Source: Cantharellus purpuraceus (taxonomy: Eukaryota; Basidiomycota; Agaricomycetes; Cantharellales; Hydnaceae). From it: 64,000 nucleotides of DNA. The stretch spans positions 1,736,001 through 1,800,000 of the forward strand of contig JALBUN010000045.1 of assembly GCA_025174535.1 (NCBI GenBank). Direction: 5' to 3'. The position numbers and the translations under genes were made by a program. The notes under the pieces are model-generated. The model saw nothing but the letters and a program-made list of their open reading frames with translations, was not told where the DNA came from and searched no databases. Below, piece after piece: positions 5,623-58,055 of the stretch. Numbering within the stretch: position 1 is the stretch's first letter; every line of letters starts with the position of its first letter.

Positions 5623-5963
5623 TGTTATGACTATATTCATTAACGTCCAGATCCCCGTCCGATCCCCTCAGATCCCTGTGCATATGAAATCTATACTCCA
5701 TTTGGAAACCGCCGTCTCCATCTCCCTGTCCAATCGTCACCACTGATTCCGCCCATCCATCTCCGGTTCCAATTGATGCATCAGCATCAGCATAGGAACC
5801 CGGACACCCGTCCCTGTTGGACTCGGACATACTCATGTAAGGCCATCGGCCTTGGAGACCCATCACCGGAGTAATTATTATTAGATTTCAAAATATGTAT
5901 TTAAGTTGCCCGACTGGGGACTTCATTCCCCAGTTTGAATATCAAATCACGCCTAGTTCCTAA
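5623..5963 (+). repeat. LTR-C, left half (split by the composite transposon)
   Basis: Starts TGTTATGACTATATTC. It runs to CCTAGTTCCTAA, where the 16.2-kb element begins. It resumes at 22194 with TAAGTCTGATCC, giving about 539 bp when the halves are joined. Other LTR-C copies here read straight through this point (about 41760 and 42640). Confidence 0.9.
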
Positions 5964-5978
5964 GACGCTTGTTCGGAA
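5964..5978 (+). repeat. Left terminal inverted repeat
   Basis: GACGCTTGTTCGGAA, matched by the right end at 22179-22193 in inverse orientation, directly outside which lies the TAA duplication. Confidence 0.8.
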
Positions 5979-6527
5979 TCATGTCAGTATACAATATTCT
6001 GATGTATAGGAGATATACATCAGGATTTCAATGATACATAAAGCCAGGGAGTTACAATTTGGATATCTTAAAAGATTTTGGATGTGTGAAATTTTCATAA
6101 ATATAAACATATATTCTATATTTTAATAAACTTTAAAAGATAAGATATTTGGTTGAGATGAACATAATCATTTACATGGATATAATAGGAATGTATGTAT
6201 TAATATAATTGGTATTATATAGGGTATTTAGATATACAAATACCAGGTGGGGACTAAAGATAGTTCAAATTATGTTACAAGTATTGTATAAGAAAGAATC
6301 AATGATATTTGGATGTTCCTTCAAGAGAGTTGCCACCACTAAATGGGAAAAAACAATTATTTTTGAGAATTATGCCAAAATATCACAATATGTTTTAATC
6401 TAGTATATTGTGTAAAATTTGAGAATCATGTTGAAATATGAAAATAAGTTTGAATTGAAGTGTATTGTATAAAATTTGAGGAAAATAGGTTGTACATATG
6501 TATTTGTTGTATTTCTGAATAAGCGTC
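5964..6527 (+). repeat. Terminal direct repeat, copy 1 (564 bp)
   Basis: Near-identical to 13794-14358 and 21629-22193. Each copy begins GACGCTT and ends AAGCGTC, so each is also a MITE-like unit. Differences are a few substitutions and one-base indels, e.g. a G run near 6343. It has a 10-bp hairpin at 5999-6023 and no convincing gene. Confidence 0.9.
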
Positions 6528-7066
6528 TTAGGAAAGTCTTGGAAACAAACACCTTTAATGCAGTGAAGCTATTTTTAAAACAAAGTAACTTAGTTAGGGC
6601 ATAGTGGTAGATAATCTTGTTCTAACATAAGACTGTATGACTATCCCTCGTACTTTAGGGTGCAATACCATCAGATTTTCCATCCAAAGTGGTGGAAAAT
6701 AATGATCCTGCTCCATACTAGTATATAACTCTGTTAATTTCTGTTCCAGAAGTGTGCCATCAGTACATCTGTATAAAGTCAGTGATTGGAACCTTGATAT
6801 TTATAAAGGAACTTACCTCAGAAACAAATCATGGAGGGATCCTATCCGAGATATATACCAATCATTAACTCTTCTATCAAACTCTATCTTGCATTGAAGC
6901 ATAAAAGAGAGCATCTTCATAATGCTTATAACATAAAAACATAATAATCATTTTATTAAGAAAGCAAGATGTATATATCTACTGCCTATACAAAATATCA
7001 AATGTTCAGAAAAAATGATTATTATGTTTTTTCATTTCTGTTTTATAAGCAGAGAGGGATTTGAAA
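6528..7066 (+). other. AT-rich leader of unit 1
   Basis: Non-coding 5' region of the unit, repeated at 14359-14898. It holds a TATA-like TATTTATAAAGG near 6798, a possible 37-codon ORF at 6831-6944 (start MEGSYPRY), and a 20-bp perfect inverted repeat (6935-6954 and 7012-7031). I see no other gene. Confidence 0.5.
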
Positions 7067-8497
7067 ATGCCACAAATCTTTGAAGATATAAAAGCAATCA
7101 AAGGCTGGATAAGTGACAATGATGCACTGATAAAAGCTATGGCAAGTCAAATGGAAGTAAAAGATGAATTAATATCTGATCTTATAAATGTCAAGTCTTG
7201 GATGAGTGAAAAGGATAGGCAGATCACTATACTCGAACAACAGGTTAATTCCCAGAGTCAGGAAATTCAGGTGCTTAAGAAACAGGTTGAGGAAAAAAAT
7301 ACAATTATAACTACTTTGACATACAGGAAAGAGAATTTAGATAAACGGGTGAGTGAAATGAATGATGTTGTATCAGGATTTGGAACAGTTATTCATAAAC
7401 TTCAGAGACAGGTTAATAGGTGTGTTGCCACAATATCAGACCATGGAACAGATATTCATCAACAGGTCAATACACATAATGCAGAGAATCGTATATTGGA
7501 CCATAGAACAGATATTCATAAACTTCAGAAACAGGTTAATAGATGTATTGCAACAATATCAGACATTGTGGAATGGAAATCTGAAGTGCATGAGTGGATT
7601 GTAGAAACAGATGATACTGTAGTGGAACTTGGAACAGACATTAATAAACTTCAGAAACAGGGTGATAAATATAAAGCAATAATATCTGAGATTGTTGACT
7701 GGAAATTTGATATGAATCACTGGGCTGGAAAACAAGAACAGGAGGTAACAAGGTTACAGGAAAATGGTACCAGAAAGGTGACATTTAAGATAGTGAAAAG
7801 AGGTGTAGACTATATACTTATAGACTCAGATCAGTCTTGTAGACTAAATAGAATGGAATTATTCATAAATGGTGAGCCTAGAAAACTATCTACAATATAT
7901 ACTAGGAAGAATGAAATGTCATCATATGATGTAGATGGTAATAGGATTAATTTTCAAACATGGAAGCAAGGAATGACTCAAGGTTCAAGGCATCAAGAAA
8001 AAAGGTCTAACGAACGATCTCAAACTCCTAGTTCAAGGCATCAAGAAAAAAGGTCTAACGAACGATCTCAAACTCCTAGTTCAAGGCATCAAGAAAAAAG
8101 GTCTAAGGAACGATCTGATTCAGACTCTGATCAATCTGATTCAGACTCTGATCAATCTGATTCAGACTCTGATCAATCTGATTCAGACTCTGATCAATCT
8201 GATTCAGACTCTGATCAATCTGATTCAGACTCTGATCAATCTGATTCAGACTCTGATCAATCTGATTCAGACTCTGATCAATCTGATTCAGACTCTGATC
8301 AATCTGATTCAGACTCTGATCAATCTGATTCAGACTCTGATCAATCTGATTCAGACTCTGATCAATCTGATTCAGACTCTGATCAATCTGATTCAGACTC
8401 TGATCAATCTGATTCAGACTCTGATCAATCTGATTCAGACTCTGATCAATCTCAAATTCCTAGTTCAAGAAAAAGATGTAGAGGTAGAACCCAGTAA
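7067..8497 (+). CDS. Coiled-coil protein with SDSDSDQ repeats, unit 1 copy
   Basis: A 476-aa protein of unknown function. The frame opens earlier at a TTG; the first ATG (7067, MPQIFEDIKAIKG) is the credible start. Residues about 1-235 are heptad-like coiled coil with internal repeats such as INKLQKQ and IHKLQKQVNRC; KLQ/QVN segments recur about every 35-40 residues. A compact segment follows (about 238-300, TFKIVKRGVDYILIDSDQ...). Then come three copies of SSRHQEKRSNERSQTP-like sequence, 16 exact copies of SDSDSDQ, and a basic SSRKRCRGRTQ end. The acidic, Ser-rich repeat and basic tail suggest a nuclear or nucleic-acid-associated scaffold, but that is inference. The unit 2 copy is frameshifted before the repeats. 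Confidence 0.75.
   Translation: MPQIFEDIKAIKGWISDNDALIKAMASQMEVKDELISDLINVKSWMSEKDRQITILEQQVNSQSQEIQVLKKQVEEKNTIITTLTYRKENLDKRVSEMNDVVSGFGTVIHKLQRQVNRCVATISDHGTDIHQQVNTHNAENRILDHRTDIHKLQKQVNRCIATISDIVEWKSEVHEWIVETDDTVVELGTDINKLQKQGDKYKAIISEIVDWKFDMNHWAGKQEQEVTRLQENGTRKVTFKIVKRGVDYILIDSDQSCRLNRMELFINGEPRKLSTIYTRKNEMSSYDVDGNRINFQTWKQGMTQGSRHQEKRSNERSQTPSSRHQEKRSNERSQTPSSRHQEKRSKERSDSDSDQSDSDSDQSDSDSDQSDSDSDQSDSDSDQSDSDSDQSDSDSDQSDSDSDQSDSDSDQSDSDSDQSDSDSDQSDSDSDQSDSDSDQSDSDSDQSDSDSDQSDSDSDQSQIPSSRKRCRGRTQ
8114..8449 (+). repeat. 16 x 21-bp coding tandem repeat
   Basis: 336 bp, exact multiples of a 21-mer encoding SDSDSDQ, in frame. The second unit has the same number at 15944-16279. Confidence 0.95.
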
Positions 8498-8585
8498 TGT
8501 AAGCCTCCGAAGACGTAGGATACAAGGCATTCCATGCTTCTGACAAGGTCACCTTGGAGTGAATGGCTGTCCATGAGCAGTCTAA

Positions 8586-9130
8586 TGATGTCCCTATCTG
8601 TCGTTTCATTTCTCCATGATTTCCCCTTTAGTAGCTCAACTTCACACGCTTCATCAGCTGGCTTGATCAGCATTTCTTGCATCATTTGCTCCTCATATTG
8701 TGTCGTTGTGCCCTGGGAATTTGTATATAAAAGGGCGCTAGTTTTCGCCTTTGGAATCAAAAAACAAGTTTTCAGCCAACGCTCTAAAGTCAAAGTCCAA
8801 GCTCTAAGTCTACACTCTACATCACAATCCATCATCTCTACACTGAGGTAAAACACCTTGGTTCAACGATCAGATTTCCCTCCGCCACCGAGAGGTTGCT
8901 TCTCCTGAAACCAGCTTTCGCGTACCTTCCAACTGGGCTCCACATTGTCATCCAGTCACAGAGCACGATCAGCCATTGGGACCGACCTTTAGCTCCCATC
9001 CCCATCCAACCACAGAGCACTATCCCACTTCCCTGTTACTTACCCCTCACCCTGATTGATCTTTGGAGTGCTGAACAACTGCGTTACACGCCGTCTGTTT
9101 GCTAGGATCTATTCCTTAAGCGAACCGACA
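8586..9130 (+). repeat. LTR-D 3' fragment captured in unit 1
   Basis: Matches LTR-D (25345-25899), including TTTGTATATAAAAGGGCGCTAG and the true LTR end CGAACCGACA at 9130. The 5' part is missing. The captured piece is more GC-rich than the rest of the unit and is flanked by near-identical 16-mers at 8540-8555 and 9285-9300. Short frames within it, such as 8452-8856 minus, are not genes. Confidence 0.85.
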
Positions 9131-9660
9131 CTGAGTAACATCATCGGGCTGCTCAAGGACAACGATTCAATTATCTGGTACACCATGCCGCTGCAAAGTC
9201 TCACCTACTGTCTGCTCAGTAAGTGCATCATTATCAACCCTCACAGCCAAAAGGCTGTCCTTTGATAATGTGATCAAACTGCTCCTGACAAGGTGACCTT
9301 CCATCCGACGTCATTACCATGATATGATAATATCCAATCGGCTGGTACACCTATTTAGCTATGCAGCAAAGAATTTGGAATGAAAGACTGGCAAGATAGG
9401 AAACAAGGAACTGGTAGAAGAATGATAGATGAAAGGACAGGGAATTCTGTATGGGACTTTGTTGTAGTATTCAGAACGAGTGCATGCATCTGGCTATTGA
9501 CAACTTTAGAAAATATATATAATTCAATTTATAAATATTAGATAAAAATATGGATGTTTACTACAACATTCTGATTTGATTCACCATTCTGCTCTTCAGA
9601 ACTATGCACATATCTAGTAAAAAATGAAATAAATTTTATATATCCTTCTTTATTGACATC
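9131..9660 (+). other. Non-coding spacer in unit 1
   Basis: Runs from the LTR-D end to the next ATG. The first part (9131-9300) is GC-richer captured sequence, the rest AT-rich; repeated at 16961-17490. No gene recognised. Confidence 0.5.
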
Positions 9661-10431
9661 ATGGGTAAAGATAAGAAGTGCAATGATTGGAGTTCTCGTG
9701 ATCTTTGGGATTATGGTATAATGGTTGACACACAATGGACTAAACAGTTTTTTGAGACAGATTTTAGAGATATTACTTTAGATATTGATGATGAGATCCT
9801 CAGTTTTGATTACAAAAAAGATGATGTGAAATGTTTAAAGGAGTCTTCAAGAAAATTTTTTACATACTTAGATAGATCTACTAGAGTCAGGGAAGGATCT
9901 ACATTGGTTAATGATTTTACCAGAGAAGTGCTCTTTCTTATGAAATATGACAAGGATGAAAGATTAATCATCACTCATAATAAAATCCCTATGAATGTGA
10001 GGGGAAATATAACAAGAAATGTTATAGAGATGTGTGTTATAAAAAATGATAATGAGATACTGTTTTTTACACATGAGAACACAAATCAGATAAATCCAGA
10101 ACCGCAGATTATAGCAAGAGCTATAGCAGTTTTTCAATTGAATAACAAGATTAGGAAGAATAAGGGAAAAAGTGCTTTAGAGGAAATGACAATACCTTGC
10201 ATTCAAACATCGAGAAAAGTCCCCCAGTTTTACCTAGTAACTGTTACAAGAGAGCTTGATCATGCTATCACAGAAGGGTTGTTTTCAGAAGTGATAACAA
10301 ATGTATGGTGTTGTTTCCCTGTAACAGTAACAGGTATGAAACATATTAATAGTAGAAAGAATGTTCTACAGTGTTTTGAAGCATTTAAGAAGTTTGTAGA
10401 TATACTTGATAGGAAATTAGATGAGAAATAA
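9661..10431 (+). CDS. 256-aa fungal protein of an uncharacterised family, unit 1
   Basis: Intact and intronless. Residues about 125-165 read ILFFTHENTNQINPEPQIIARAIAVFQ, followed by EEMTIPCIQTSRKVPQFYLVTVT. This combination (PEPQxIAxAIAxFQxNN, then TIPxI...FYxxxVT, and a C-terminal LQCFEAFKKFV) is one I recognise from a large set of uncharacterised Agaricomycete proteins. Those often read QEDK where this has HENT. Their layout recalls PD-(D/E)XK nucleases, but this is inference, and the expected Lys is not obvious here. The unit 2 copy (17491-18261) encodes the same protein. Its place in a mobile element might mean an accessory nuclease or a captured gene. Confidence 0.8.
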   Translation: MGKDKKCNDWSSRDLWDYGIMVDTQWTKQFFETDFRDITLDIDDEILSFDYKKDDVKCLKESSRKFFTYLDRSTRVREGSTLVNDFTREVLFLMKYDKDERLIITHNKIPMNVRGNITRNVIEMCVIKNDNEILFFTHENTNQINPEPQIIARAIAVFQLNNKIRKNKGKSALEEMTIPCIQTSRKVPQFYLVTVTRELDHAITEGLFSEVITNVWCCFPVTVTGMKHINSRKNVLQCFEAFKKFVDILDRKLDEK

Positions 10432-10469
10432 TGAGTTTTTAAAATTAATATATAATAACCAGAGACACC

Positions 10470-10649
10470 ATGTTGAATATACCTGAGATTGGTGATAAGG
10501 TATCATTTATCAATGCAAGAACACAAATGACAGTGACAGGTATTGTTACATTAGTAACTGGCACTTTGTCAGATGACACTTTGCTAATAACTGTTACTTA
10601 TGATGACAATGAGATTCAGCTACCACTACGTGCACTACAACAAGTATAA
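10470..10649 (+). CDS. Small 59-aa protein, unit 1
   Basis: Starts MLNIPEIGDKVSFINARTQM, 38 bp after the stop of the 256-aa gene. The rest is beta-rich (TGIVTLVTG, LLITVTYDDNEIQLPL), like a small SH3/Tudor-type barrel, though this is only fold intuition. Conservation is perfect in unit 2 (18300-18479). The short gap suggests joint transcription with the gene before it. Confidence 0.5.
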   Translation: MLNIPEIGDKVSFINARTQMTVTGIVTLVTGTLSDDTLLITVTYDDNEIQLPLRALQQV

Positions 10650-10700
10650 GATAAATCAGATAAGTGAATATGCAATATTTTTATTCACTCAAATGAAGGC

Positions 10701-10923
10701 ATGTGTGGTGATAGTGAAAAATTCAAATTACTTGGAAGTGCAATCATATAACTACTACATCTGTAGTTACAGATTGTAAGGATATTAAATGTCCTAAGAG
10801 CTCTGAACATTCAAAAATACTCATCATGATACTAATGGTACTTATTGTTGTGTGAACAAAAGTTCAAATCTTGAAATTATCCAAGTGAAAATAGATGAAA
10901 AATGTTGTGAGTGTAGAAACTAG
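10701..10923 (+). pseudogene. Cysteine-rich small protein, frameshifted copy
   Basis: Counterpart of the 74-aa protein at 18531-18755. Two A-runs are each one base shorter (about 10718 and 10816), breaking the frame. Confidence 0.6.
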
Positions 10924-10941
10924 GACTTTTAAATCAACTCC

Positions 10942-11592
10942 TTATGAGGATTCTTTGAACATCTGATTTCTTATACTTTGGAATATAATGTCAATAGCAT
11001 TAGAACACTCTTCAAACTGAGCTTCTATGCTGTATCCAGAGGAAGGATATACAACAATTGAAACACCCTGATTGTTATTGGTGGTTTCATATAATTTTAA
11101 CCTACCATCCTTAGTTATGATCATACCATAGATTGTGATTTTACTTTTCTTGAAAACTCTCTGCTGTTGTTTCAATGCAACAACCATTGACGTAACCAAA
11201 TTGTTATACACATCACAGTTCTTACAAGTTTCCCCAGCAATAGAAATATCACACTTCTTGCCAGTTTCTCTAGCAATAGAAATATTACAACTAGGCAGAT
11301 TATCCTGTTGCATGGTTTGCAGACTTGACATACAATGATTTTGTTGAATCCAGGTTGAATTACTTATTTCATTGCCCTTTTCAATCATCTTATTGTACAG
11401 TGCTTCTGGTGTTTTATCTCTTTCCTGAGAAACCAATCCAGCTGGAAAGAAGTCCTTTGGGGGATTTCTTAATCTGAATTTTATGTAGATGGTGTCAGAG
11501 TCTATATACAAAGGATTTTCATCATCCTCTGGTTCTTTTTTAACAAAGACAGTAGATATTTTACGAACAACTTGCTTAGAGACAGACAACAT
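10942..11592 (-). CDS. 216-aa unknown protein, antisense in unit 1
   Basis: The only minus-strand gene of the unit, intact and identical in layout in unit 2 (18774-19424). It starts MLSVSKQVVRKISTVFVKKE. Features: an acidic EPEDDEN patch, IYIKFRLRNPPKDFF near residue 36, a repeated SIARETGKKCD / SIAGETCKNCD pair around residues 105-130, a basic QQQRVFKKSKITIYG segment, and a C-terminal region with SIVVYPSSGYSIEAQFEE. No known family recognised. It runs toward the cysteine-rich gene and diverges from the transposase gene, with about 100 bp between their starts that must hold both promoters. Confidence 0.7.
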   Translation of the reverse strand: MLSVSKQVVRKISTVFVKKEPEDDENPLYIDSDTIYIKFRLRNPPKDFFPAGLVSQERDKTPEALYNKMIEKGNEISNSTWIQQNHCMSSLQTMQQDNLPSCNISIARETGKKCDISIAGETCKNCDVYNNLVTSMVVALKQQQRVFKKSKITIYGMIITKDGRLKLYETTNNNQGVSIVVYPSSGYSIEAQFEECSNAIDIIFQSIRNQMFKESS

Positions 11593-11688
11593 AGCTTCAT
11601 AGAATAAATATTATTTAATTTAAAATTCAATTATCAAAAAAATGAACATATTTTTGTTTTACTGTAATATAAGAGTATCTTAGTCAAA

Positions 11689-11889
11689 ATGCCCTCAGAC
11701 CAGCAAAAACGCACAAAGGAGCAAAAAGAGAAAGAGCAAAAAGAGAAAGAAGAAAAAGAGCTTCAGCAACTTAAAATGTGGAATGATCAAAGGGACAGAG
11801 CATATAATAAGTTGATGGACAATCATTGGAATTTTCTATACACAAAGTGGCCTGTCTTAGAACACAAAAATATCATAGAACAAAACTAA
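11689..11889 (+). CDS. 66-aa charged N-terminal ORF before the transposase, unit 1
   Basis: Starts MPSDQQKRTKEQKEKEQKEK, a Lys/Glu/Gln-rich helix, and ends at TAA 11887-11889. The transposase frame opens just after, in another frame. It may be the true N-terminus of the transposase, joined by frameshifting or an unseen intron, or a separate small protein. Identical at 19521-19721. Confidence 0.45.
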   Translation: MPSDQQKRTKEQKEKEQKEKEEKELQQLKMWNDQRDRAYNKLMDNHWNFLYTKWPVLEHKNIIEQN

Positions 11890-11894
11890 AAGAT

Positions 11895-13161
11895 ATGAAT
11901 GACATGGATGATGTAAAAAAGTAGTATATAACAAGCTTGGACCAATACCAGTATTTTTCTTTCTTGTGGTATTGTTTTCAGTTGAAGAACATTCTACACC
12001 TTATAGAGAGATAGAAAAAGGCTTGTTAGTACTATATCATCTACTCAAAGGTCCTACTTATGAAGAAATAGGAAATTTCATGCCATCAAGTAGCTTTTAT
12101 GATGTTCATAAGGAATTTTATGGTCGTCTGCATCATCTTAACTTTGATCTAGATAAACAAGTTACTGATTCACTGCATACAATGTTCTCAAATATAATAA
12201 TAAGGATATTATCAGCTCTTATAAAGAATCCTCCAAAAATGGAATCAGTGACATTACTTCTTGATGGTCATGATACAAGAGGAATTTTGATTGGATCGGC
12301 ATCTGAAGAGTGGTACTCACATAAATTTAAAAGGCAGGATTTCGTACTCAAGTATGCATTGACATTAATCAAATGGTTCTATTCACCTCACCTTCATTGG
12401 CATGTAAACTAAATCCTGATGCAAAAATGTTTGTAGAGATGGCTGTATGGAATAAAATAGATAAGATTGATCAGATAGGCTTTGATGGAGCTTATCCATC
12501 TGCTATTCCAGAAGTAGTAAAGGCAAGTATATTAAAGCCTAAGAACTTCTTTTATCCTTTTCGGAAGCCAAAAATGTTGAACTTAAACCTGAAGAAAAGA
12601 TTTTTAATAAGAAGTTTGGTGCCTTTCGTTCAACAGTAGAAGCATTCTTTGGAGGGTTTGCAATATTGTTTGAAAAATTTGATAATAAGAGATCTATTAG
12701 AACTACAAATCCTGCTGTCTTTAATCTGGAATTAAAGGTAGCATGTCTATTATGGAATATTAAGAAATTTGTAGAACTACGTAAGATCAAACCATCTCCT
12801 TATCATGAAAAATGGTGTGAACAATATTTTGATTACCCTGAGGAAGAGGACCCAGATATTGAGCCACCCAGATCATTACTGGAAAGAGCAGAAGATGTTG
12901 ACAAGATGACTCAATCTCAACAACGACTATTAGAAAGATGTGAGTATGATGTGGAGATGCATTATGAGACTGAAAATGAAGTAGAACAAATAATAAGGCA
13001 AAGAAAAAGGAAAGTACGTAGAATATTTAGTTAAATGGAAATGTTATGCAGAGAAAACTTGGGAAGCAACATCAAGCTTTAAATCTACAGAATGTATTAA
13101 AGAGTATTGGAAAGACAATAGTAATAGTATTATTGTATACCTATGCTACATTCAACTGTAA
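11895..13161 (+). pseudogene. PIF/Harbinger-like DDE transposase, frameshifted copy (unit 1)
   Basis: Same gene as 19727-20996 but broken into at least four frames. Breaks are one-base differences in homopolymers: an A run near 11916-11922, A-runs near 12331 and 12570. There are also substitutions, e.g. GAAGAGTGG for GAAGAGGGG near 12307. The D, D and E positions remain recognisable in separate frames. The chromodomain in the shifted frame follows at about 13000-13161, as in unit 2. Confidence 0.85.
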
Positions 13162-13216
13162 ATTTTTTTCCCAGAATAAAATTGAATATTTGTATGTTTT
13201 ATACTTATAGGTATCT

Positions 13217-13714
13217 ATGGAGACTGATCCATTACTGAAACAGCGTCTCAATCAACAGTTTTACCAAAAGCCTTTTCACAGCAATCCACACCGGCTAGCT
13301 AATTGTACAACGTGTGACTGGTACCCCTTTGGGCAGTATCTGGACCGTTCATATGCTGAAGGTGAAGTGTTCCAGCTTTCAAAGTATCCTCATATCAAAT
13401 ATGTATTTCTTGGTCTACAACCTGATAAAATAGGCTATAATGAAAGTGATCCTATTTTTGTAGCAGAATTTGTAGGTTTTCTGAATAAAACCAACAGATT
13501 TGTAAGTGGTTCTGATCCAACCTCTGGATATGCACACATTATAACCACACATGTGAATCAGGCGTTTGTTAGACAGCCAGGCCCAGATATAAATAGGCAG
13601 AAACTATATCTTGGCCGTACAGTGCACATGATCTACATAACTAGTATTGGTATACTATTGGCTTTGCTGTGTTGGACAGTGTCCAGACATACCAATGAAG
13701 ATAAGAATTCATAA
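13217..13714 (+). CDS. 165-aa C-terminally anchored protein, unit 1
   Basis: Starts METDPLLKQRLNQQFYQ. Contains a CTTCDWYPFGQYLDRSY segment near residue 31 and YPHIKYVFLGLQPDK near 58. It has one strong hydrophobic helix near the end (about 139-156, MIYITSIGILLALLCWTV) followed by a short polar tail, as in tail-anchored membrane proteins. No known family recognised. Identical at 21052-21549. A possible splice acceptor (TTATAG) just before the ATG leaves open an upstream exon. A membrane-anchored protein is unusual cargo for a DNA transposon. Confidence 0.65.
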   Translation: METDPLLKQRLNQQFYQKPFHSNPHRLANCTTCDWYPFGQYLDRSYAEGEVFQLSKYPHIKYVFLGLQPDKIGYNESDPIFVAEFVGFLNKTNRFVSGSDPTSGYAHIITTHVNQAFVRQPGPDINRQKLYLGRTVHMIYITSIGILLALLCWTVSRHTNEDKNS

Positions 13715-13793
13715 TGGCATGTCTAAATCTATGGAGAAAGAAGCTTGTTGATGATATAAGGTGATGATTTTTGTTTTTAAAATGACCTCCCTA

Positions 13794-14358
13794 GACGCTT
13801 GTTCTGAATCATGTCAGTATACAATATTCTGATGTATAGGAGATATACATCAGGATTTCAATGATACATAAAGCCAGGGAGTTACAATTTGGATATCTTA
13901 AAAGATTTTGGATGTGTGAAATTTTCATAAATATAAACATATATTCTATATTTTAATAAACTTTAAAAGATAAGATATTTGGTTGAGATGAACATAATCA
14001 TTTACATGGATATAATAGGAATGTATGTATTAATATAATTGGTATTATATAGGGTATTTAGATATACAAATACCAGGTGGGGACTAAAGATAGTTCAAAT
14101 TATGTTACAAGTATTGTATAAGAAAGAATCAATGATATTTGGATGTTCCTTCAAGAGAGTTGCCACCACTAAATGGGGAAAAAACAATTATTTTTGAGAA
14201 TTATGCCAAAATATCACAATATGTTTTAATCTAGTATATTGTGTAAAATTTGAGAATCATGTTGAAATATGAAAATAAGTTTGAATTGAAGTGTATTGTA
14301 TAAAATTTGAGGAAAATAGGTTGTACATATGTATTTGTTGTATTTCTGAATAAGCGTC
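13794..14358 (+). repeat. Direct repeat, copy 2 (565 bp)
   Basis: Middle copy, between the two multigene units. Flanked by CTA on the left and TTA on the right. Confidence 0.9.
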
Positions 14359-14898
14359 TTAGGAAAGTCTTGGAAACAAACACCTTTAATGCAGTGAAGC
14401 TATTTTTAAAACAAAGTAACTTAGTTAGGGCATAGTGGTAGATAATCTTGTTCTAACATAAGACTGTATGACTATCCCTCGTACTTTAGGGTGCAATACC
14501 ATCAGATTTTCCATCCAAAGTGGTGGAAAATAATGATCCTGCTCCATACTAGTATATAACTCTGTTAATTTCTGTTCCAGAAGTGTGCCATCAGTACATC
14601 TGTATAAAGTCAGTGATTGGAACCTTGATATTTATAAAGGAACTTACCTCAGAAACAAATCATGGAGGGATCCTATCCGAGATATATACCAATCATTAAC
14701 TCTTCTATCAAACTCTATCTTGCATTGAAGCATAAAAGAGAGCATCTTCATAATGCTTATAACATAAAAACATAATAATCATTTTATTAAGAAAGCAAGA
14801 TGTATATATCTACTGCCTATACAAAATATCAAATGTTCAGAAAAAAATGATTATTATGTTTTTTCATTTCTGTTTTATAAGCAGAGAGGGATTTGAAA
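14359..14898 (+). other. AT-rich leader of unit 2
   Basis: Repeat of 6528-7066 with the same hairpin and TATA-like box; no further gene seen. Confidence 0.5.
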
Positions 14899-16327
14899 AT
14901 GCCACAAATCTTTGAAGATATAAAAGCAATCAAAGGCTGGATAAGTGACAATGATGCACTGATAAAAGCTATGGCAAGTCAAATGGAAGTAAAAGATGAA
15001 TTAATATCTGATCTTATAAATGTCAAGTCTTGGATGAGTGAAAAGGATAGGCAGATCACTATACTCGAACAACAGGTTAATTCCCAGAGTCAGGAAATTC
15101 AGGTGCTTAAGAAACAGGTTGAGGAAAAAAATACAATTATAACTACTTTGACATACAGGAAAGAGAATTTAGATAAACGGGTGAGTGAAATGAATGATGT
15201 TGTATCAGGATTTGGAACAGTTATTCATAAACTTCAGAGACAGGTTAATAGGTGTGTTGCCACAATATCAGACCATGGAACAGATATTCATCAACAGGTC
15301 AATACACATAATGCAGAGAATCGTATATTGGACCATAGAACAGATATTCATAAACTTCAGAAACAGGTTAATAGATGTATTGCAACAATATCAGACATTG
15401 TGGAATGGAAATCTGAAGTGCATGAGTGGATTGTAGAAACAGATGATACTGTAGTGGAACTTGGAACAGACATTAATAAACTTCAGAAACAGGGTGATAA
15501 ATATAAAGCAATAATATCTGAGATTGTTGACTGGAAATTTGATATGAATCACTGGGCTGGAAAACAAGAACAGGAGGTAACAAGGTTACAGGAAAATGGT
15601 ACCAGAAAGGTGACATTTAAGATAGTGAAAAGAGGTGTAGACTATATACTTATAGACTCAGATCAGTCTTGTAGACTAAATAGAATGGAATTATTCATAA
15701 ATGGTGAGCCTAGAAAACTATCTACAATATATACTAGGAAGAATGAAATGTCATCATATGATGTAGATGGTAATAGGATTAATTTTCAAACATGGAAGCA
15801 AGGAATGACTCAAGGTTCAAGGCATCAAGAAAAAGGTCTAATGAACGATCTCAAACTCCTAGTTCAAGGCATCAAGAAAAAGGTCTAATGAACGATCTCA
15901 AACTCCTAGTTCAAGGCATCAAGAAAAAAGGTCTAAGGAACGATCTGATTCAGACTCTGATCAATCTGATTCAGACTCTGATCAATCTGATTCAGACTCT
16001 GATCAATCTGATTCAGACTCTGATCAATCTGATTCAGACTCTGATCAATCTGATTCAGACTCTGATCAATCTGATTCAGACTCTGATCAATCTGATTCAG
16101 ACTCTGATCAATCTGATTCAGACTCTGATCAATCTGATTCAGACTCTGATCAATCTGATTCAGACTCTGATCAATCTGATTCAGACTCTGATCAATCTGA
16201 TTCAGACTCTGATCAATCTGATTCAGACTCTGATCAATCTGATTCAGACTCTGATCAATCTGATTCAGACTCTGATCAATCTCAAATTCCTAGTTCAAGA
16301 AAAAGATGTAGAGGGAGAACCCAGTAA
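14899..16327 (+). pseudogene. Coiled-coil/SDSDSDQ protein, frameshifted copy (unit 2)
   Basis: Identical to the unit 1 gene through the coiled coil. One A is lost in the A-run at about 15829-15833, so the frame leaves the SSRHQEK repeats and stops at 15888. A TAATGA replaces TAACGA, and the loss recurs in the next repeat. The 16 SDSDSDQ units at 15944-16279 are out of frame. The unit 1 copy is intact, so this is recent decay or a consensus error. Confidence 0.8.
15944..16279 (+). repeat. 16 x 21-bp tandem repeat, unit 2
   Basis: Same unit and number as 8114-8449. Confidence 0.95.
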
Positions 16328-16415
16328 TGTAAGCCTCCGAAGACGTAGGATACAAGGCATTCCATGCTTCTGACAAGGTCACCTTGGAGTGAATGGCTGT
16401 CCATGAGCAGTCTAA

Positions 16416-16960
16416 TGATGTCCCTATCTGTCGTTTCATTTCTCCATGATTTCCCCTTTAGTAGCTCAACTTCACACGCTTCATCAGCTGGCTTGATCAG
16501 CATTTCTTGCATCATTTGCTCCTCATATTGTGTCGTTGTGCCCTGGGAATTTGTATATAAAAGGGCGCTAGTTTTAGCCTTTGGAATCAAAAAACAAGTT
16601 TTCAGCCAACGCTCTAAAGTCAAAGTCCAAGCTCTAAGTCTACACTCTACATCACAATCCATCATCTCTACACTGAGGTAAAACACCTTGGTTCAACGAT
16701 CAGATTTCCCTCCGCCACCGAGAGGTTGCTTCTCCTGAAACCAGCTTTCGCGTACCTTCCAACTGGGCTCCACATTGTCATCCAGTCACAGAGCACGATC
16801 AGCCATTGGGACCGACCTTTAGCTCCCATCCCCATCCAACCACAGAGCACTATCCCACTTCCCTGTTACTTACCCCTCACCCTGATTGATCTTTGGAGTG
16901 CTGAACAACTGCGTTACACGCCGTCTGTTTGCTAGGATCTATTCCTTAAGCGAACCGACA
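16416..16960 (+). repeat. LTR-D 3' fragment captured in unit 2
   Basis: Counterpart of 8586-9130, with almost no difference, so the capture predates the duplication of the units. Confidence 0.85.
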
Positions 16961-17490
16961 CTGAGTAACATCATCGGGCTGCTCAAGGACAACGATTCAA
17001 TTATCTGGTACACCATGCCGCTGCAAAGTCTCACCTACTGTCTGCTCAGTAAGTGCATCATTATCAACCCTCACAGCCAAAAGGCTGTCCTTTGATAATG
17101 TGATCAAACTGCTCCTGACAAGGTGACCTTCCATCCGACGTCATTACCATGATATGATAATATCCAATCGGCTGGTACACCTATTTAGCTATGCAGCAAA
17201 GAATTTGGAATGAAAGACTGGCAAGATAGGAAACAAGGAACTGGTAGAAGAATGATAGATGAAAGGACAGGGAATTCTGTATGGGACTTTGTTGTAGTAT
17301 TCAGAACTAGTGCATGCATCTGGCTATTGACAACTTTAGAAAATATATATAATTCAATTTATAAATATTAGATAAAAATATGGATGTTTACTACAACATT
17401 CTGATTTGATTCACCATTCTGCTCTTCAGAACTATGCACATATCTAGTAAAAAATGAAATAAATTTTATATATCCTTCTTTATTGACATC

Positions 17491-18261
17491 ATGGGTAAAG
17501 ATAAGAAGTGCAATGATTGGAGTTCTCGTGATCTTTGGGATTATGGTATAATGGTTGACACACAATGGACTAAACAGTTTTTTGAGACAGATTTTAGAGA
17601 TATTACTTTAGATATTGATGATGAGATCCTCAGTTTTGATTACAAAAAAGATGATGTGAAATGTTTAAAGGAGTCTTCAAGAAAATTTTTTACATACTTA
17701 GATAGATCTACTAGAGTCAGGGAAGGATCTACATTGGTTAATGATTTTACCAGAGAAGTGCTCTTTCTTATGAAATATGACAAGGATGAAAGATTAATCA
17801 TCACTCATAATAAAATCCCTATGAATGTGAGGGGAAATATAACAAGAAATGTTATAGAGATGTGTGTTATAAAAAATGATAATGAGATACTGTTTTTTAC
17901 ACATGAGAACACAAATCAGATAAATCCAGAACCGCAGATTATAGCAAGAGCTATAGCAGTTTTTCAATTGAATAACAAGATTAGGAAGAATAAGGGAAAA
18001 AGTGCTTTAGAGGAAATGACAATACCTTGCATTCAAACATCGAGAAAAGTCCCCCAGTTTTACCTAGTAACTGTTACAAGAGAGCTTGATCATGCTATCA
18101 CAGAAGGGTTGTTTTCAGAAGTGATAACAAATGTATGGTGTTGTTTCCCTGTAACAGTAACAGGTATGAAACATATTAATAGTAGAAAGAATGTTCTACA
18201 GTGTTTTGAAGCATTTAAGAAGTTTGTAGATATACTTGATAGGAAATTAGATGAGAAATAA
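17491..18261 (+). CDS. 256-aa fungal protein of an uncharacterised family, unit 2
   Basis: Encodes the same protein as 9661-10431: the PEPQIIARAIAVFQ core, TIPCIQTSRKVPQFY, and a C-terminal LQCFEAFKKFV segment. Both copies are open, unlike the transposase and coiled-coil genes, which are each open in only one unit. That is weak support for function, or simply fewer long homopolymers. Confidence 0.8.
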   Translation: MGKDKKCNDWSSRDLWDYGIMVDTQWTKQFFETDFRDITLDIDDEILSFDYKKDDVKCLKESSRKFFTYLDRSTRVREGSTLVNDFTREVLFLMKYDKDERLIITHNKIPMNVRGNITRNVIEMCVIKNDNEILFFTHENTNQINPEPQIIARAIAVFQLNNKIRKNKGKSALEEMTIPCIQTSRKVPQFYLVTVTRELDHAITEGLFSEVITNVWCCFPVTVTGMKHINSRKNVLQCFEAFKKFVDILDRKLDEK

Positions 18262-18299
18262 TGAGTTTTTAAAATTAATATATAATAACCAGAGACACC

Positions 18300-18479
18300 A
18301 TGTTGAATATACCTGAGATTGGTGATAAGGTATCATTTATCAATGCAAGAACACAAATGACAGTGACAGGTATTGTTACATTAGTAACTGGCACTTTGTC
18401 AGATGACACTTTGCTAATAACTGTTACTTATGATGACAATGAGATTCAGCTACCACTACGTGCACTACAACAAGTATAA
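18300..18479 (+). CDS. Small 59-aa protein, unit 2
   Basis: Same as 10470-10649, again 38 bp behind the 256-aa gene. Confidence 0.5.
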   Translation: MLNIPEIGDKVSFINARTQMTVTGIVTLVTGTLSDDTLLITVTYDDNEIQLPLRALQQV

Positions 18480-18530
18480 GATAAATCAGATAAGTGAATA
18501 TGCAATATTTTTATTCACTCAAATGAAGGC

Positions 18531-18755
18531 ATGTGTGGTGATAGTGAAAAAATTCAAATTACTTGGAAGTGCAATCATATAACTACTACATCTGTAGTTA
18601 CAGATTGTAAGGATATTAAATGTCCTAAGAGCTCTGAACATTCAAAAAATACTCATCATGATACTAATGGTACTTATTGTTGTGTGAACAAAAGTTCAAA
18701 TCTTGAAATTATCCAAGTGAAAATAGATGAAAAATGTTGTGAGTGTAGAAACTAG
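18531..18755 (+). CDS. Cysteine-rich 74-aa protein, unit 2
   Basis: Starts MCGDSEKIQITWKCNH and contains nine Cys, including CKDIKCPK, CC and CCEC near the end. The spacing suggests a small metal-binding domain (treble-clef or zinc-ribbon type), but the pattern matches nothing I can name. There is no signal peptide. It lies 51 bp behind the 59-aa ORF and ends 18 bp before the convergent 216-aa gene. Broken in unit 1. Confidence 0.5.
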   Translation: MCGDSEKIQITWKCNHITTTSVVTDCKDIKCPKSSEHSKNTHHDTNGTYCCVNKSSNLEIIQVKIDEKCCECRN

Positions 18756-18773
18756 GACTTTTAAATCAACTCC

Positions 18774-19424
18774 TTATGAGGATTCTTTGAACATCTGATT
18801 TCTTATACTTTGGAATATAATGTCAATAGCATTAGAACACTCTTCAAACTGAGCTTCTATGCTGTATCCAGAGGAAGGATATACAACAATTGAAACACCC
18901 TGATTGTTATTGGTGGTTTCATATAATTTTAACCTACCATCCTTAGTTATGATCATACCATAGATTGTGATTTTACTTTTCTTGAAAACTCTCTGCTGTT
19001 GTTTCAATGCAACAACCATTGACGTAACCAAATTGTTATACACATCACAGTTCTTACAAGTTTCCCCAGCAATAGAAATATCACACTTCTTGCCAGTTTC
19101 TCTAGCAATAGAAATATTACAACTAGGCAGATTATCCTGTTGCATGGTTTGCAGACTTGACATACAATGATTTTGTTGAATCCAGGTTGAATTACTTATT
19201 TCATTGCCCTTTTCAATCATCTTATTGTACAGTGCTTCTGGTGTTTTATCTCTTTCCTGAGAAACCAATCCAGCTGGAAAGAAGTCCTTTGGGGGATTTC
19301 TTAATCTGAATTTTATGTAGATGGTGTCAGAGTCTATATACAAAGGATTTTCATCATCCTCTGGTTCTTTTTTAACAAAGACAGTAGATATTTTACGAAC
19401 AACTTGCTTAGAGACAGACAACAT
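18774..19424 (-). CDS. 216-aa unknown protein, antisense in unit 2
   Basis: Same protein as at 10942-11592, with the KKEPEDDEN patch and the IARETGKKCD/IAGETCKNCD pair. Starts 97 bp from the divergent MPSDQQK ORF. Confidence 0.7.
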   Translation of the reverse strand: MLSVSKQVVRKISTVFVKKEPEDDENPLYIDSDTIYIKFRLRNPPKDFFPAGLVSQERDKTPEALYNKMIEKGNEISNSTWIQQNHCMSSLQTMQQDNLPSCNISIARETGKKCDISIAGETCKNCDVYNNLVTSMVVALKQQQRVFKKSKITIYGMIITKDGRLKLYETTNNNQGVSIVVYPSSGYSIEAQFEECSNAIDIIFQSIRNQMFKESS

Positions 19425-19520
19425 AGCTTCATAGAATAAATATTATTTAATTTAAAATTCAATTATCAAAAAAATGAACATATTTTTGTTTTACTGTAAT
19501 ATAAGAGTATCTTAGTCAAA

Positions 19521-19721
19521 ATGCCCTCAGACCAGCAAAAACGCACAAAGGAGCAAAAAGAGAAAGAGCAAAAAGAGAAAGAAGAAAAAGAGCTTCAGCA
19601 ACTTAAAATGTGGAATGATCAAAGGGACAGAGCATATAATAAGTTGATGGACAATCATTGGAATTTTCTATACACAAAGTGGCCTGTCTTAGAACACAAA
19701 AATATCATAGAACAAAACTAA
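19521..19721 (+). CDS. 66-aa charged N-terminal ORF before the transposase, unit 2
   Basis: As at 11689-11889. Its 3' end overlaps an upstream opening of the transposase frame (from 19658), which would allow a frameshift fusion, but no standard slippery site is evident. Confidence 0.45.
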   Translation: MPSDQQKRTKEQKEKEQKEKEEKELQQLKMWNDQRDRAYNKLMDNHWNFLYTKWPVLEHKNIIEQN

Positions 19722-19726
19722 AAGAT

Positions 19727-20869
19727 ATGAATGACATGGATGATGTAAAAAAAGTAGTATATAACAAGCTTGGACCAATACCAGTATTTTTCTTTCTTGT
19801 GGTATTGTTTTCAGTTGAAGAACATTCTACACCTTATAGAGAGATAGAAAAAGGCTTGTTAGTACTATATCATCTACTCAAAGGTCCTACTTATGAAGAA
19901 ATAGGAAATTTCATGCCATCAAGTAGCTTTTATGATGTTCATAAGGAATTTTATGGTCGTCTGCATCATCTTAACTTTGATCTAGATAAACAAGTTACTG
20001 ATTCACTGCATACAATGTTCTCAAATATAATAATAAGGATATTATCAGCTCTTATAAAGAATCCTCCAAAAATGGAATCAGTGACATTACTTCTTGATGG
20101 TCATGATACAAGAGGAATTTTGATTGGATCGGCATCTGAAGAGGGGTACTCACATAAATTTAAAAAGGCAGGATTTCGTACTCAAGTATGCATTGACATT
20201 AATCAAATGGTTCTATTCACCTCACCTTCATTGGCATGTAAACTAAATCCTGATGCAAAAATGTTTGTAGAGATGGCTGTATGGAATAAAATAGATAAGA
20301 TTGATCAGATAGGCTTTGATGGAGCTTATCCATCTGCTATTCCAGAAGTAGTAAAGGCAAGTATATTAAAGCCTAAGAACTTCTTTTATCCTTTTCTGAA
20401 GCCAAAAAATGTTGAACTTAAACCTGAAGAAAAGATTTTTAATAAGAAGTTTGGTGCCTTTCGTTCAACAGTAGAAGCATTCTTTGGAGGGTTTGCAATA
20501 TTGTTTGAAAAATTTGATAATAAGAGATCTATTAGAACTACAAATCCTGCTGTCTTTAATCTGGAATTAAAGGTAGCATGTCTATTATGGAATATTAAGA
20601 AATTTGTAGAACTACGTAAGATCAAACCATCTCCTTATCATGAAAAATGGTGTGAACAATATTTTGATTACCCTGAGGAAGAGGACCCAGATATTGAGCC
20701 ACCCAGATCATTACTGGAAAGAGCAGAAGATGTTGACAAGATGACTCAATCTCAACAACGACTATTAGAAAGATGTGAGTATGATGTGGAGATGCATTAT
20801 GAGACTGAAAATGAAGTAGAACAAATAATAAGGCAAAGAAAAAGGAAAGTACGTAGAATATTTAGTTAA
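19727..20869 (+). CDS. PIF/Harbinger-like DDE transposase (DDE_Tnp_4 type), intact copy
   Basis: Cuts and joins the ends of the element. The frame opens at 19658 without an ATG; I take ATG 19727 (MNDMDDVKKVVYN), giving 380 aa. An N-terminal helix-turn-helix-like region (YREIEKGLLVLYHLL...YEEIGNFM) is followed by the catalytic core: D124 in VTLLLDGHD, D198 in IDQIGFDGAY, and E250 in GAFRSTVEAFFG. Between them lies RTQVCIDINQMVLFTSPS, like fungal DDE_Tnp_4 proteins of Mucoromycota and Basidiomycota. The C-terminal part has a conserved LLWNIKKFV and a charged linker NEVEQIIRQRKRK. The frame then ends at RRIFS, while a chromodomain opens one base over at 20835. The TAA duplication at the ends of the element fits the family. 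Confidence 0.85.
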   Translation: MNDMDDVKKVVYNKLGPIPVFFFLVVLFSVEEHSTPYREIEKGLLVLYHLLKGPTYEEIGNFMPSSSFYDVHKEFYGRLHHLNFDLDKQVTDSLHTMFSNIIIRILSALIKNPPKMESVTLLLDGHDTRGILIGSASEEGYSHKFKKAGFRTQVCIDINQMVLFTSPSLACKLNPDAKMFVEMAVWNKIDKIDQIGFDGAYPSAIPEVVKASILKPKNFFYPFLKPKNVELKPEEKIFNKKFGAFRSTVEAFFGGFAILFEKFDNKRSIRTTNPAVFNLELKVACLLWNIKKFVELRKIKPSPYHEKWCEQYFDYPEEEDPDIEPPRSLLERAEDVDKMTQSQQRLLERCEYDVEMHYETENEVEQIIRQRKRKVRRIFS

Positions 20870-20996
20870 ATGGAAATGTTATGCAGAGAAAACTTGGGAA
20901 GCAACATCAAGCTTTAAATCTACAGAATGTATTAAAGAGTATTGGAAAGACAATAGTAATAGTATTATTGTATACCTATGCTACATTCAACTGTAA
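20835..20996 (+). CDS. Chromodomain C-terminal extension of the transposase, +1 frame
   Basis: Directly after the transposase linker (NEVEQII, typical of a chromodomain first strand), the +1 frame reads KEKGKYVEYLVKWKCYAEKTWEA and continues to KSTECIKEYWKD, ending at TAA 20994-20996. The aromatic/WK...W pattern is a chromodomain. A one-base forward shift in the A/G-rich stretch 20835-20850 would fuse it to the transposase. Unit 1 has the same arrangement, so either shifting is programmed or the break is older than the duplication. Chromodomains are known to target chromovirus integrases to chromatin. Confidence 0.75.
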   Translation, partial: KEKGKYVEYLVKWKCYAEKTWEATSSFKSTECIKEYWKDNSNSIIVYLCYIQL

Positions 20997-21051
20997 ATTT
21001 TTTTCCCAGAATAAAATTGAATATTTGTATGTTTTATACTTATAGGTATCT

Positions 21052-21549
21052 ATGGAGACTGATCCATTACTGAAACAGCGTCTCAATCAACAGTTTTACC
21101 AAAAGCCTTTTCACAGCAATCCACACCGGCTAGCTAATTGTACAACGTGTGACTGGTACCCCTTTGGGCAGTATCTGGACCGTTCATATGCTGAAGGTGA
21201 AGTGTTCCAGCTTTCAAAGTATCCTCATATCAAATATGTATTTCTTGGTCTACAACCTGATAAAATAGGCTATAATGAAAGTGATCCTATTTTTGTAGCA
21301 GAATTTGTAGGTTTTCTGAATAAAACCAACAGATTTGTAAGTGGTTCTGATCCAACCTCTGGATATGCACACATTATAACCACACATGTGAATCAGGCGT
21401 TTGTTAGACAGCCAGGCCCAGATATAAATAGGCAGAAACTATATCTTGGCCGTACAGTGCACATGATCTACATAACTAGTATTGGTATACTATTGGCTTT
21501 GCTGTGTTGGACAGTGTCCAGACATACCAATGAAGATAAGAATTCATAA
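21052..21549 (+). CDS. 165-aa C-terminally anchored protein, unit 2
   Basis: Same protein as at 13217-13714, with CTTCDWYPFGQYLDRSY and the single hydrophobic helix MIYITSIGILLALLCWTV near the end. Confidence 0.65.
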   Translation: METDPLLKQRLNQQFYQKPFHSNPHRLANCTTCDWYPFGQYLDRSYAEGEVFQLSKYPHIKYVFLGLQPDKIGYNESDPIFVAEFVGFLNKTNRFVSGSDPTSGYAHIITTHVNQAFVRQPGPDINRQKLYLGRTVHMIYITSIGILLALLCWTVSRHTNEDKNS

Positions 21550-21628
21550 TGGCATGTCTAAATCTATGGAGAAAGAAGCTTGTTGATGATATAAGGTGAT
21601 GATTTTTGTTTTTAAAATGACCTCCCTA

Positions 21629-22193
21629 GACGCTTGTTCGGAATCATGTCAGTATACAATATTCTGATGTATAGGAGATATACATCAGGATTTCAATGAT
21701 ACATAAAGCCAGGGAGTTACAATTTGGATATCTTAAAAGATTTCGGATGTGTGAAATTTTCATAAATATAAACATATATTCTATATTTTAATAAACTTTA
21801 AAAGATAAGATATTTGGTTGAGATGAACATAATCATTTACATGGATATAATAGGAATGTATGTATTAATATAATTGGTATTATATAGGGTATTTAGATAT
21901 ACAAATACCAGGTGGGGACTAAAGATAGTTCAAATTATGTTACAAGTATTGTATAAGAAAGAATCAATGATATTTGGATGTTCCTTCAAGAGAGTTGCCA
22001 CCACTAAATGGGGAAAAAACAATTATTTTTGAGAATTATGCCAAAATATCACAATATGTTTTAATCTAGTATATTGTGTAAAATTTGAGAATCATGTTGA
22101 AATATGAAAATAAGTTTGAATTGAAGTGTATTGTATAAAATTTGAGGAAAATAGGTTGTACATATGTATTTGTTGTATTTCTGAATAAGCGTC
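21629..22193 (+). repeat. Terminal direct repeat, copy 3 (565 bp)
   Basis: Right outer copy. It has one private substitution (TTTCGGATG for TTTTGGATG near 21740). Flanked by CTA and TAA. Confidence 0.9.
22179..22193 (-). repeat. Right terminal inverted repeat
   Basis: Complement reads GACGCTTATTCAGAA. Followed by TAA and the continuation of the LTR-C target. Confidence 0.8.
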
Positions 22194-22394
22194 TAAGTCT
22201 GATCCTAACTCTCTAAGTTGTACTCCGTCTCCGAAATCTGGGACACCGGTATTAGTGAGGGTGCAGCACATAAGCTGAAGCCAAGTCCGTCCCGACCCCC
22301 ACGACGTGCTCCGACTCTGACCCAACCTCCGACCCAACTTCCGACCTGAACTCCGACCCAATCTCCAACCCCCAATCGGACCTAGTGCATAACA
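22194..22394 (+). repeat. LTR-C, right half
   Basis: Continues the LTR-C copy broken at 5963, starting with the duplicated TAA, and ends GTGCATAACA. Confidence 0.9.
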
Positions 22395-22886: not shown

Positions 22887-23409
22887 TGTTATGACTATAT
22901 TCATTAACGCCCAGATCCCCATCCAATCCACTCAGATCCCCATGCACATGAAATCTATACTCCATTTGGGAACCATCACATCTCCATTAGTCTGTCCGAT
23001 TGTCACCGTCAATCTCACTCATCCGCCTCTGGTTCCAAATTGATGTATCAGCATCACTATAGGAACCTGGACATCCATCCCCATTGGACTCAGACATATT
23101 CACATAAGGCCATCAGCCTCAGAGACCCATCACCGGAGTAATTATTATTAGATTTCAAATATGTATTTAAGTTGCCTGACTGGGGACCTCATTCCCCAGT
23201 TTGAATATCAAATCATGCCTAGCTCCTAAGTCTGATCTGAACTGTCTAAGTTGTACTCCATCTCTGAAATCTCGGACAAAGGTATTAGTGAGGGTGCAGC
23301 ATATAAGCTGAAGCCAAGTCCATTCTGACCCCCATGACACACCCCAATCCCCGCTCCAACTCCAACCCAAACTCTGACCCAAACCCCCAATTGGACCTAG
23401 TGCGTAACA
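22887..23409 (+). repeat. LTR-C (5' LTR of Gyp-2)
   Basis: TGTTATGACTATATTC...GTGCGTAACA, 33 bp before the Gag ATG. Confidence 0.8.
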
Positions 23410-25043: not shown

Positions 25044-25456
25044 CTCAGGTTACATCGTGTCAGGCAAAGGGACCGAATACTCTTGGAACGGGATATGGAG
25101 ACGGATCACTAAGACAATAAGGAGTATTTGTTGTGGATGCTGACTGAAGTCCTCATGTGACTCAGGGTCAATTTACCTTCGGAGCTGTAGGGAAGATGGT
25201 ATTGGTGGATGTTTCTATTGTTCTTTTATATGACTCACCCCTGTTTCATCTTTTAATTCATTCATACATGACTTACTCATCCTTGTTCTATTTTTGGTTC
25301 TTTTATTATTCATCACCCCCTATTCTTACAAAGATTACCCCTATCTGTCGTTTCATTTCTCCATGATTTCCCCATTAGTAGTTCAACTTCACACACTTTG
25401 TCAGCTGGCTCACATCATTTGCTCCTCATATTGTGTCGTTGTGCCCTGGGGATTTG

Positions 25457-25466
25457 TATATAAAAG
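25457..25466 (+). promoter_or_regulatory. LTR-D TATA box
   Basis: TATATAAAAG, conserved in the copies at 8734-8744, 46210 and (inverted) 59725. A standard U3/R promoter position. Confidence 0.65.
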
Positions 25467-25903
25467 GGCACTAGTTTTCGCCTTTGGAAGAAATCAACAA
25501 GTTTTCAGCCAACGCTCTAAAGTCAAAGTCCACGCTCTAAGTCTACGCTCTATGCTCTACATCACAATCCATCATCTCTACACTGAGGTAAAACACCTTG
25601 GTTCAACGATCAGATTTCCCTCCACCACCGAGAGGTTGCTTCTCTTGAAACCAGCTTTCACATACCTCCCAACCGGGCTCCGCATTGTCATCCAGTCACA
25701 GAGCACGATCAGCCATCGGGACCGACCTTTTGCTCCTATCCCCATCCAACCACAGAGCACTATTCCACTTCCCTGTTACTCAGTGCCGCCCCTACCCCTG
25801 ATTGATCTTTGGAGTGCTGAACAACTGCGTTACACACCGTCTGTTTGCTAGGACCGTTGCATGCAGGCTTATAGGATCTATTCCATAAGCGAACCAACAC
25901 TGC

Positions 25904-57832: not shown

Positions 57833-58055
57833 TGTCGGTTTGCTTAAGGAATAGATCCTATAAGCCTGCGCGCAACGGTCCTAGCAAGCAGACGGTGTGT
57901 AACACAGTTGTTCAGCACTCCAAAGATCAATCAGGGCGAGGGGTACGTAACAGGGAAGTGGGATAGTGCTCTGTGATTGGATGAGGATGGGAGCAAAAGG
58001 TCGGTCCCGATGGCTGATCGTGCTCTGTGACTGGATGACAATGCGGAGCCCGGTT

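Follow-up and report, generated by a model that had tools for sequence, protein, structure and literature searches.

The genome of the basidiomycete Cantharellus purpuraceus harbors a family of transposable elements in which long direct repeats (R), each with short inverted ends, border a unit (U) that holds the transposase gene. One insertion of this family, TAA-[R-U-R-U-R]-TAA, fills positions 5964-22193 of the window, i.e., the entire analyzed stretch of 64,000 nucleotides (C45:1736001-1800000) from a single assembly of 40.15 Mb in 50 contigs (denoted C1, C2 and so on). With a probability just short of even, these elements are interpreted here as composite-like R-U-R DNA transposons whose new copies would come from a predicted one-repeat R-U circle inserted replicatively by their own PIF/Harbinger-type transposase. 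A broader formulation, to which a slightly lower probability is assigned, is that of a DDE transposon that would copy itself without reverse transcription and be born with identical ends resembling long terminal repeats (LTRs); the R-U circle would insert by replication, forming a cointegrate, recombination would resolve copies to solo R, and the source of the repeats would be a pool of solo R that recombine across the genome.

The insertion and its flanks consist of the following parts (window coordinates, strand, basis of the assignment).

5961-5963, no strand: left target duplication TAA (flanks and empty sites)
5964-6527, plus strand: R1, left direct repeat with inverted ends (repeat comparison)
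6528-13793, plus strand: U1, first coding unit (comparison with U2)
13794-14358, plus strand: R2, middle repeat common to both tandem units (repeat comparison and junction patterns)
14359-21628, plus strand: U2, second coding unit (comparison with U1)
21629-22193, plus strand: R3, right direct repeat (inverted ends and repeat comparison)
22194-22196, no strand: right target duplication TAA (flanks)

The three repeats (564, 565 and 565 bp) are separated by one or two substitutions and at most one one-base indel, and the two units, each of 7.27 kb, by 7 substitutions and 8 one-base indels; the divergence of U1 is 0.10% from U2 and 0.17% from the closest other U among those compared. R starts with GACGCTTGTTC and ends with the inverse of GACGCTTGTTC at 2 mismatches in 15 positions, so that the termini read GACGC...GCGTC, and six of these 15-bp inverted ends are present in the window compared to a chance expectation of 0.05. 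The 0.56-kb direct repeats with inverted ends around 7.27-kb units that were reported in the initial annotation of the window are thus recovered, and so is the single insertion with an exact TAA duplication and intact empty sites: the outer flanks are TAA on both sides, and 200 bp of each flank joined by a single TAA yield continuous matches, at 84-89%, to uninterrupted copies of the target in the window (41567-41965, 88%; 42446-42828, 89%; 23031-23409, 84%), the target being a repeat present in several copies.

The transposase is encoded in U, in the following two regions of the window.

19658-20869, plus strand: transposase open reading frame (ORF) of 403 amino acids, open in U2 (ORF list, alignment, Pfam)
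11966-13034, plus strand: transposase region of U1, broken into two listed ORFs, 11966-12412 and 12666-13034 (ORF list)

The classification as a Harbinger-type DNA transposon with LTR-like repeats, put forward on first inspection, holds. Among 31 aligned transposases, 30 match the DDE_Tnp_4 family (PF13359) at an E value of 0.01 or better, although the window transposase alone scores 19.7 bits, below the Pfam cut-off of 24.8; D147, D221 and E273 are invariant across all 31, the stretch from D221 to E273 of the window transposase contains no H in the protein alignment, and fold comparison suggests a relationship to DDE transposase and integrase cores. The short inverted ends and the 3-bp duplication fall within the range of short inverted ends and 0-3 bp duplications that characterizes the PIF/Harbinger, ISL2EU and Spy (PHIS) group. 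Because the duplication is not restricted to TAA or TTA, which account for 30 of 56 cases, the family is filed as PIF/Harbinger-type rather than canonical Harbinger.

Across the genome, the left end of R has 594 pattern matches (at most 2 mismatches; none for the reversed control), and the R-to-U and U-to-R junctions have 61 matches each at the same tolerance (none for the controls). The junctions pair into 54 R-U-R units, their two junctions a median of 6.6 kb apart, and leave 7 unpaired junctions of each kind (5 of the 7 unpaired U-to-R junctions are 2-mismatch matches), and the copy number of R is about 10 times that of U. Since junction patterns with this tolerance partly select for sharp borders, the count from the transposase side was used as a check: 107 transposase matches, merged if less than 1.5 kb apart, define 60 loci, of which 54 possess both R-U junctions, 4 possess one and 2 none. 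R is present at constant positions at both U borders in 54 of 60 loci, and two diverged relatives (transposases 62-64% identical) carry an R-like repeat next to U on the side of the transposase. The structure is therefore not a one-off, and the earlier suggestion that it could have arisen from two copies resembling a miniature inverted-repeat transposable element (MITE) is not supported in the form in which it was put. Tandems, recognized by an R common to two units, were detected at three loci, with one such R in the window, one on C38 and two on C44. The genome search called for in the initial annotation revealed both single-unit and solo copies, most of them with 3-bp duplications; the accompanying expectation that these would be TAA or TTA is borne out in just over half of the cases. 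Solo R were studied in the window and in 60 stretches fetched from C1-C6; together these contain 73 complete R, 42 of them without an adjoining U border. An exact 3-bp duplication is found at 36 of the 42 solo R, compared to 5.2 (maximum 15) when flanks are re-paired, and a matching outer 3-bp duplication at 20 of the 25 elements with both outer R read, compared to 6.6 (maximum 14).

The evidence that carries the proposed mechanism comes from the comparison of R within and between elements, for which 25 element loci were sampled non-randomly, following the order of the contigs from C1 to C10 and adding the window. In the 20 elements with matched duplications, the left and right R differ by no substitutions in 11 cases, by one in 6, and by 3, 6 and 6 in the others; in the five elements with unmatched ends, the differences are 4, 5, 7, 9 and 11. 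Between elements, R differ by 12.2 substitutions on average (1248 comparisons). Summed over the 25 elements, the differences within pairs amount to 57, compared to a mean of 294 under random pairing, and the observed value was reached in none of 20,000 trials. In an earlier sample, only one alignment column had differing majorities between the left and right R, and it was unfixed. Of the 20 matched elements, 17 lack private variants common to their two R (mean 0.3), whereas the 36 duplication-bearing solo R have a mean of 1.3 private variants (excess over element R, p 0.007); counter to this trend, the element C1_0.57 has 4 private variants in both its R. In the nine matched elements for which U was read, R-R differences total 6, and about 11 would be expected from the private changes in U if the pairs had begun identical, so that the pairs are of the right age or slightly evened out. 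Evening-out after insertion is not fast, because the elements with unmatched ends retain 4-11 differences. Near-identical pairs with element-specific haplotypes thus imply a single ancestral R for the two repeats of each element, dating from the insertion event itself or from shortly before it.

The second line of evidence is the discordance between R and U. In 10 elements (9 fetched elements and that of the window; divergence figures omit two length-variable parts of U), the left R diverge pairwise by 2.36% on average and the right R by 2.42%, compared to 0.51% for coding and 0.39% for noncoding U, and the correlation between R distance and U distance is 0.09. For the eight elements in which the two R differ by 0 or 1, divergence is greater in R than in U in all 28 comparisons, with a 3.8-fold ratio of means; in the pair L025 and L037, 18 of 565 positions differ in each R and 14 in the whole of U. 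Linkage between R variants drops with distance (mean r2 from 0.19 to 0.04), and all four combinations (the four-gamete test) are present in 84-90% of pairs of single-nucleotide polymorphisms in R more than 80 bp apart, with similar results for solo R alone, whereas U is less mixed (7-30% violations). The R haplotypes are mosaics of variants held in common, and this mosaicism, along with the divergence of about 2.4% in R and about 0.5% in U between elements, indicates that R and U have separate histories. Within-genome variation can help to separate routes of transposition: the combination of a young U, identical R pairs and unlike R in different elements suggests a stage with only one repeat.

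A cycle that could generate these patterns, its order and chemistry being deduced from them, would start with recombination between the two R of an element, releasing an R-U circle and leaving a solo R behind. The transposase would then link a new target to the two ends of the R in the circle, and once R had been replicated, the product would be a cointegrate-like target-R-U-R-target with an identical R pair and a fresh 3-bp duplication. Exchange between elements, or between a circle and a solo R, would shuffle R against U and produce unlike R pairs, and tandems such as R-U-R-U-R would stem from unequal exchange or from a dimeric circle that inserted; unequal crossing-over, already suggested for the tandem in the initial annotation, stays a fair explanation. 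The inner flanks of U, TTA on the left and CTA on the right, would be the former flanks of R in the circle.

Several points weigh against this cycle. The R-U circle is a predicted form, none having been observed, and the feature that points to a one-repeat circle cointegrate, a step modeled on an analogous system, is the identity of R pairs only. The inner flanks of U constitute an imperfect duplication; three of the 20 matched elements show 3-6 R-R differences; the total of 6 differences is somewhat under the expected 11, so that some conversion is possible; and the median number of private variants is 0 in solo R as well. Some distinct elements share an R haplotype (minimum difference 0; 16 of 1248 comparisons at 0-1), as movement of whole units would also predict. 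PIF/Harbinger transposases are not known to insert replicatively.

The alternative that best survives, although it appears rather unlikely, is cut-and-paste movement of the whole R-U-R via its outer inverted ends, followed by gene conversion between the two R, with greater R diversity maintained in the larger R pool. The agreement of the outer duplications fits this route, the roughly 10-fold excess of R copies could alone sustain more diversity, and R-R differences somewhat below the no-conversion expectation fit as well. However, cut-and-paste does not make R pairs identical, and in its simple whole-unit form it is therefore disfavored; the conversion invoked to remedy this is not fast, given that five elements with unmatched ends and three with matched ends keep 3-11 differences, and the paired change of both R next to a near-constant U is left unexplained by this scenario itself. 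Still less probable is that an R-U circle recombines homologously with a resident solo R, one of several routes put forward for KolobokP, whereby U would spread over old solo R. Such capture would account for the separate histories of R and U, the R mosaics and a duplication inherited from the solo R, and may explain the three matched elements with 3-6 differences. A crossover within R is expected, however, to leave complementary hybrid R, which disfavors the simple form of this recombination given that 17 of the 20 pairs differ by 0-1, and the scarcity of locus-specific variants in element R likewise speaks against it. Copying through RNA by the reverse transcriptase of an LTR retrotransposon, with R as true LTRs, seems highly improbable: LTRs likewise have ends that are identical at birth, occur in solo form and can be mosaics, but no reverse transcriptase match was found in the scanned ORFs, the R ends are GACGC...GCGTC and not TG...CA, the 30 bases preceding the right R are 37% purine and hence do not form a polypurine tract, and U encodes its own DDE transposase. 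An assembly artefact derived from a single unit is an equally improbable origin of the window tandem. In its favor, long, near-identical direct repeats assemble poorly, and the 8 one-base indels that separate the two units resemble read errors. Against it, U1 and U2 also show 7 substitutions, there are 1-2 among the three R, an R common to two units is found on C44 and C38 as well, and the single-unit family would be unaffected even if this tandem were artefactual.

The plan of the R-U-R elements has a counterpart in KolobokP, an animal group with the same repeat-internal-repeat organization and a Kolobok transposase (PMC9587614). In the available part of that report, KolobokP is described as having long direct repeats with short inverted ends around an internal region holding the transposase, along with solo repeats and multimers with duplications, and unequal crossover, circles and nuclease-induced exchange are proposed for a pathway that its authors call unknown. 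KolobokP belongs to the Kolobok superfamily and is reported from seven animal phyla, and most of its families encode a His-Me finger nuclease (PMC9587614); the present family, in contrast, has a fungal host and a transposase matching DDE_Tnp_4. Among its remaining ORFs, taken as unspliced, no Pfam match to a His-Me finger nuclease was obtained. The identity of R pairs and the histories of R and U were tested here, and no such test was seen for KolobokP in that part of the report (PMC9587614). What is new is the occurrence of a KolobokP-type plan in a fungus and with a PIF/Harbinger-type transposase, together with variation data that speak against cut-and-paste of the whole unit in its simple form. 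The R-U-R plan likely arose more than once, as it is combined here with a different type of transposase in another kingdom. Within the open-licence literature accessible, with subscription papers and Repbase reports outside its scope, no PIF/Harbinger-type or fungal transposon of this plan was found.

Fungal Harbinger-type transposons and the span of their duplication lengths are described in PMC12730594, and the present family shares with the PHIS group, as presented in the accessible part of that source, a DDE_Tnp_4-type transposase, short inverted ends and a 3-bp duplication that is often TAA or TTA. It departs from canonical PIF/Harbinger elements in the limited share of TAA and TTA. No Myb/SANT Pfam match was found in the scanned ORFs, which are unspliced. 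Among bacterial elements, the insertion sequence (IS) IS26 makes cointegrates in which two IS copies lie in direct orientation and new duplications arise, and for IS903 of the IS5 family alternative pathways are described (PMC7986276, as far as available). The pseudo-compound transposons of IS26 and the IS6 family resemble the present elements in having two identical direct repeats around a passenger and in forming tandem arrays, and the one-repeat circles of IS26 are the model for the predicted R-U circle and the proposed mechanism (PMC7986276). These systems differ in being bacterial and in that the IS itself encodes the transposase; here the gene is located in U, and R contains no ORF of at least 100 amino acids in the window ORF list. 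If replicative insertion were borne out, the IS26 cycle would have a counterpart in eukaryotes. Coe1 of sugar beet, in the part of PMC2426827 at hand, combines an En/Spm-type transposase with a reverse-transcriptase pseudogene, and its extreme termini are proposed to lie outside its LTRs, both unlike R-U-R (PMC2426827). LTR retrotransposons have in common with R-U-R the long terminal repeats that are alike within a copy and the solo repeats; R-U-R differs in its 15-bp inverted ends and DDE transposase and in that no reverse transcriptase was found in its scanned ORFs. LTR-finding programs could misread R-U-R elements as LTR retrotransposons, and solo R as solo LTRs or MITEs.

Apart from the transposase, U contains four ORFs.

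7061-8497, plus strand: ORF A of U1, 478 amino acids, coiled-coil-like, with an SDSDSDQ repeat tail (ORF list, Pfam scan)
17491-18261 (U1 copy 9661-10431), plus strand: ORF B, 256 amino acids, no family found (ORF list, scans)
18774-19424 (U1 copy 10942-11592), minus strand: ORF C, 216 amino acids, no homolog found (ORF list, scans)
21052-21549 (U1 copy 13217-13714), plus strand: ORF D, 165 amino acids, no family found (ORF list, scans)

ORF A ends early in U2 (14893-15888); its SDSDSDQ tail is encoded by a 21-bp tandem repeat (window 7963-8535 and 15793-16365) whose length differs among copies. A repeated segment of about 0.5 kb at U positions of about 2064-2579 (window about 16422-16937 in U2) recurs in the window at 25339-25853, 46070-46517, 57879-58055 and 59512-59870 with 85-94% identity and is missing from the U of L041 and L070; it could be a MITE-like element in its own right.

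An older, diverged R-like family with many copies is also present in the genome: matches at 81-97% to the L079 repeat (C35:12523-13051) comprise this and 39 further scored places, the best 40 of 686 candidates having been scored. Upstream of a diverged transposase on C23, L080:2246-4984 contains large nested inverted repeats, one pair of which has 555-nt arms that are 98% complementary. The species-named relatives of the transposase come from Mortierella-type and Mucorales fungi, for which horizontal transfer and patchy loss are both possibilities.

The target repeat of the window insertion (5952-5963) is a recurrent insertion site, with 8 R ends at the identical position in both orientations relative to R (5 exact, 3 with 1-2 pattern mismatches). 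Outside the window, they are as follows.

C5:114981, C10:268054, C16:347739, C22:23687, C14:695149, C11:474838 and C48:725219, both orientations: R ends in target-repeat copies (pattern match)

One of these same-site ends belongs to a solo R, and another, judged by its coordinates, is the right end of the C14 unit, which is oriented the other way; the target site can thus be used by solo as well as full copies.

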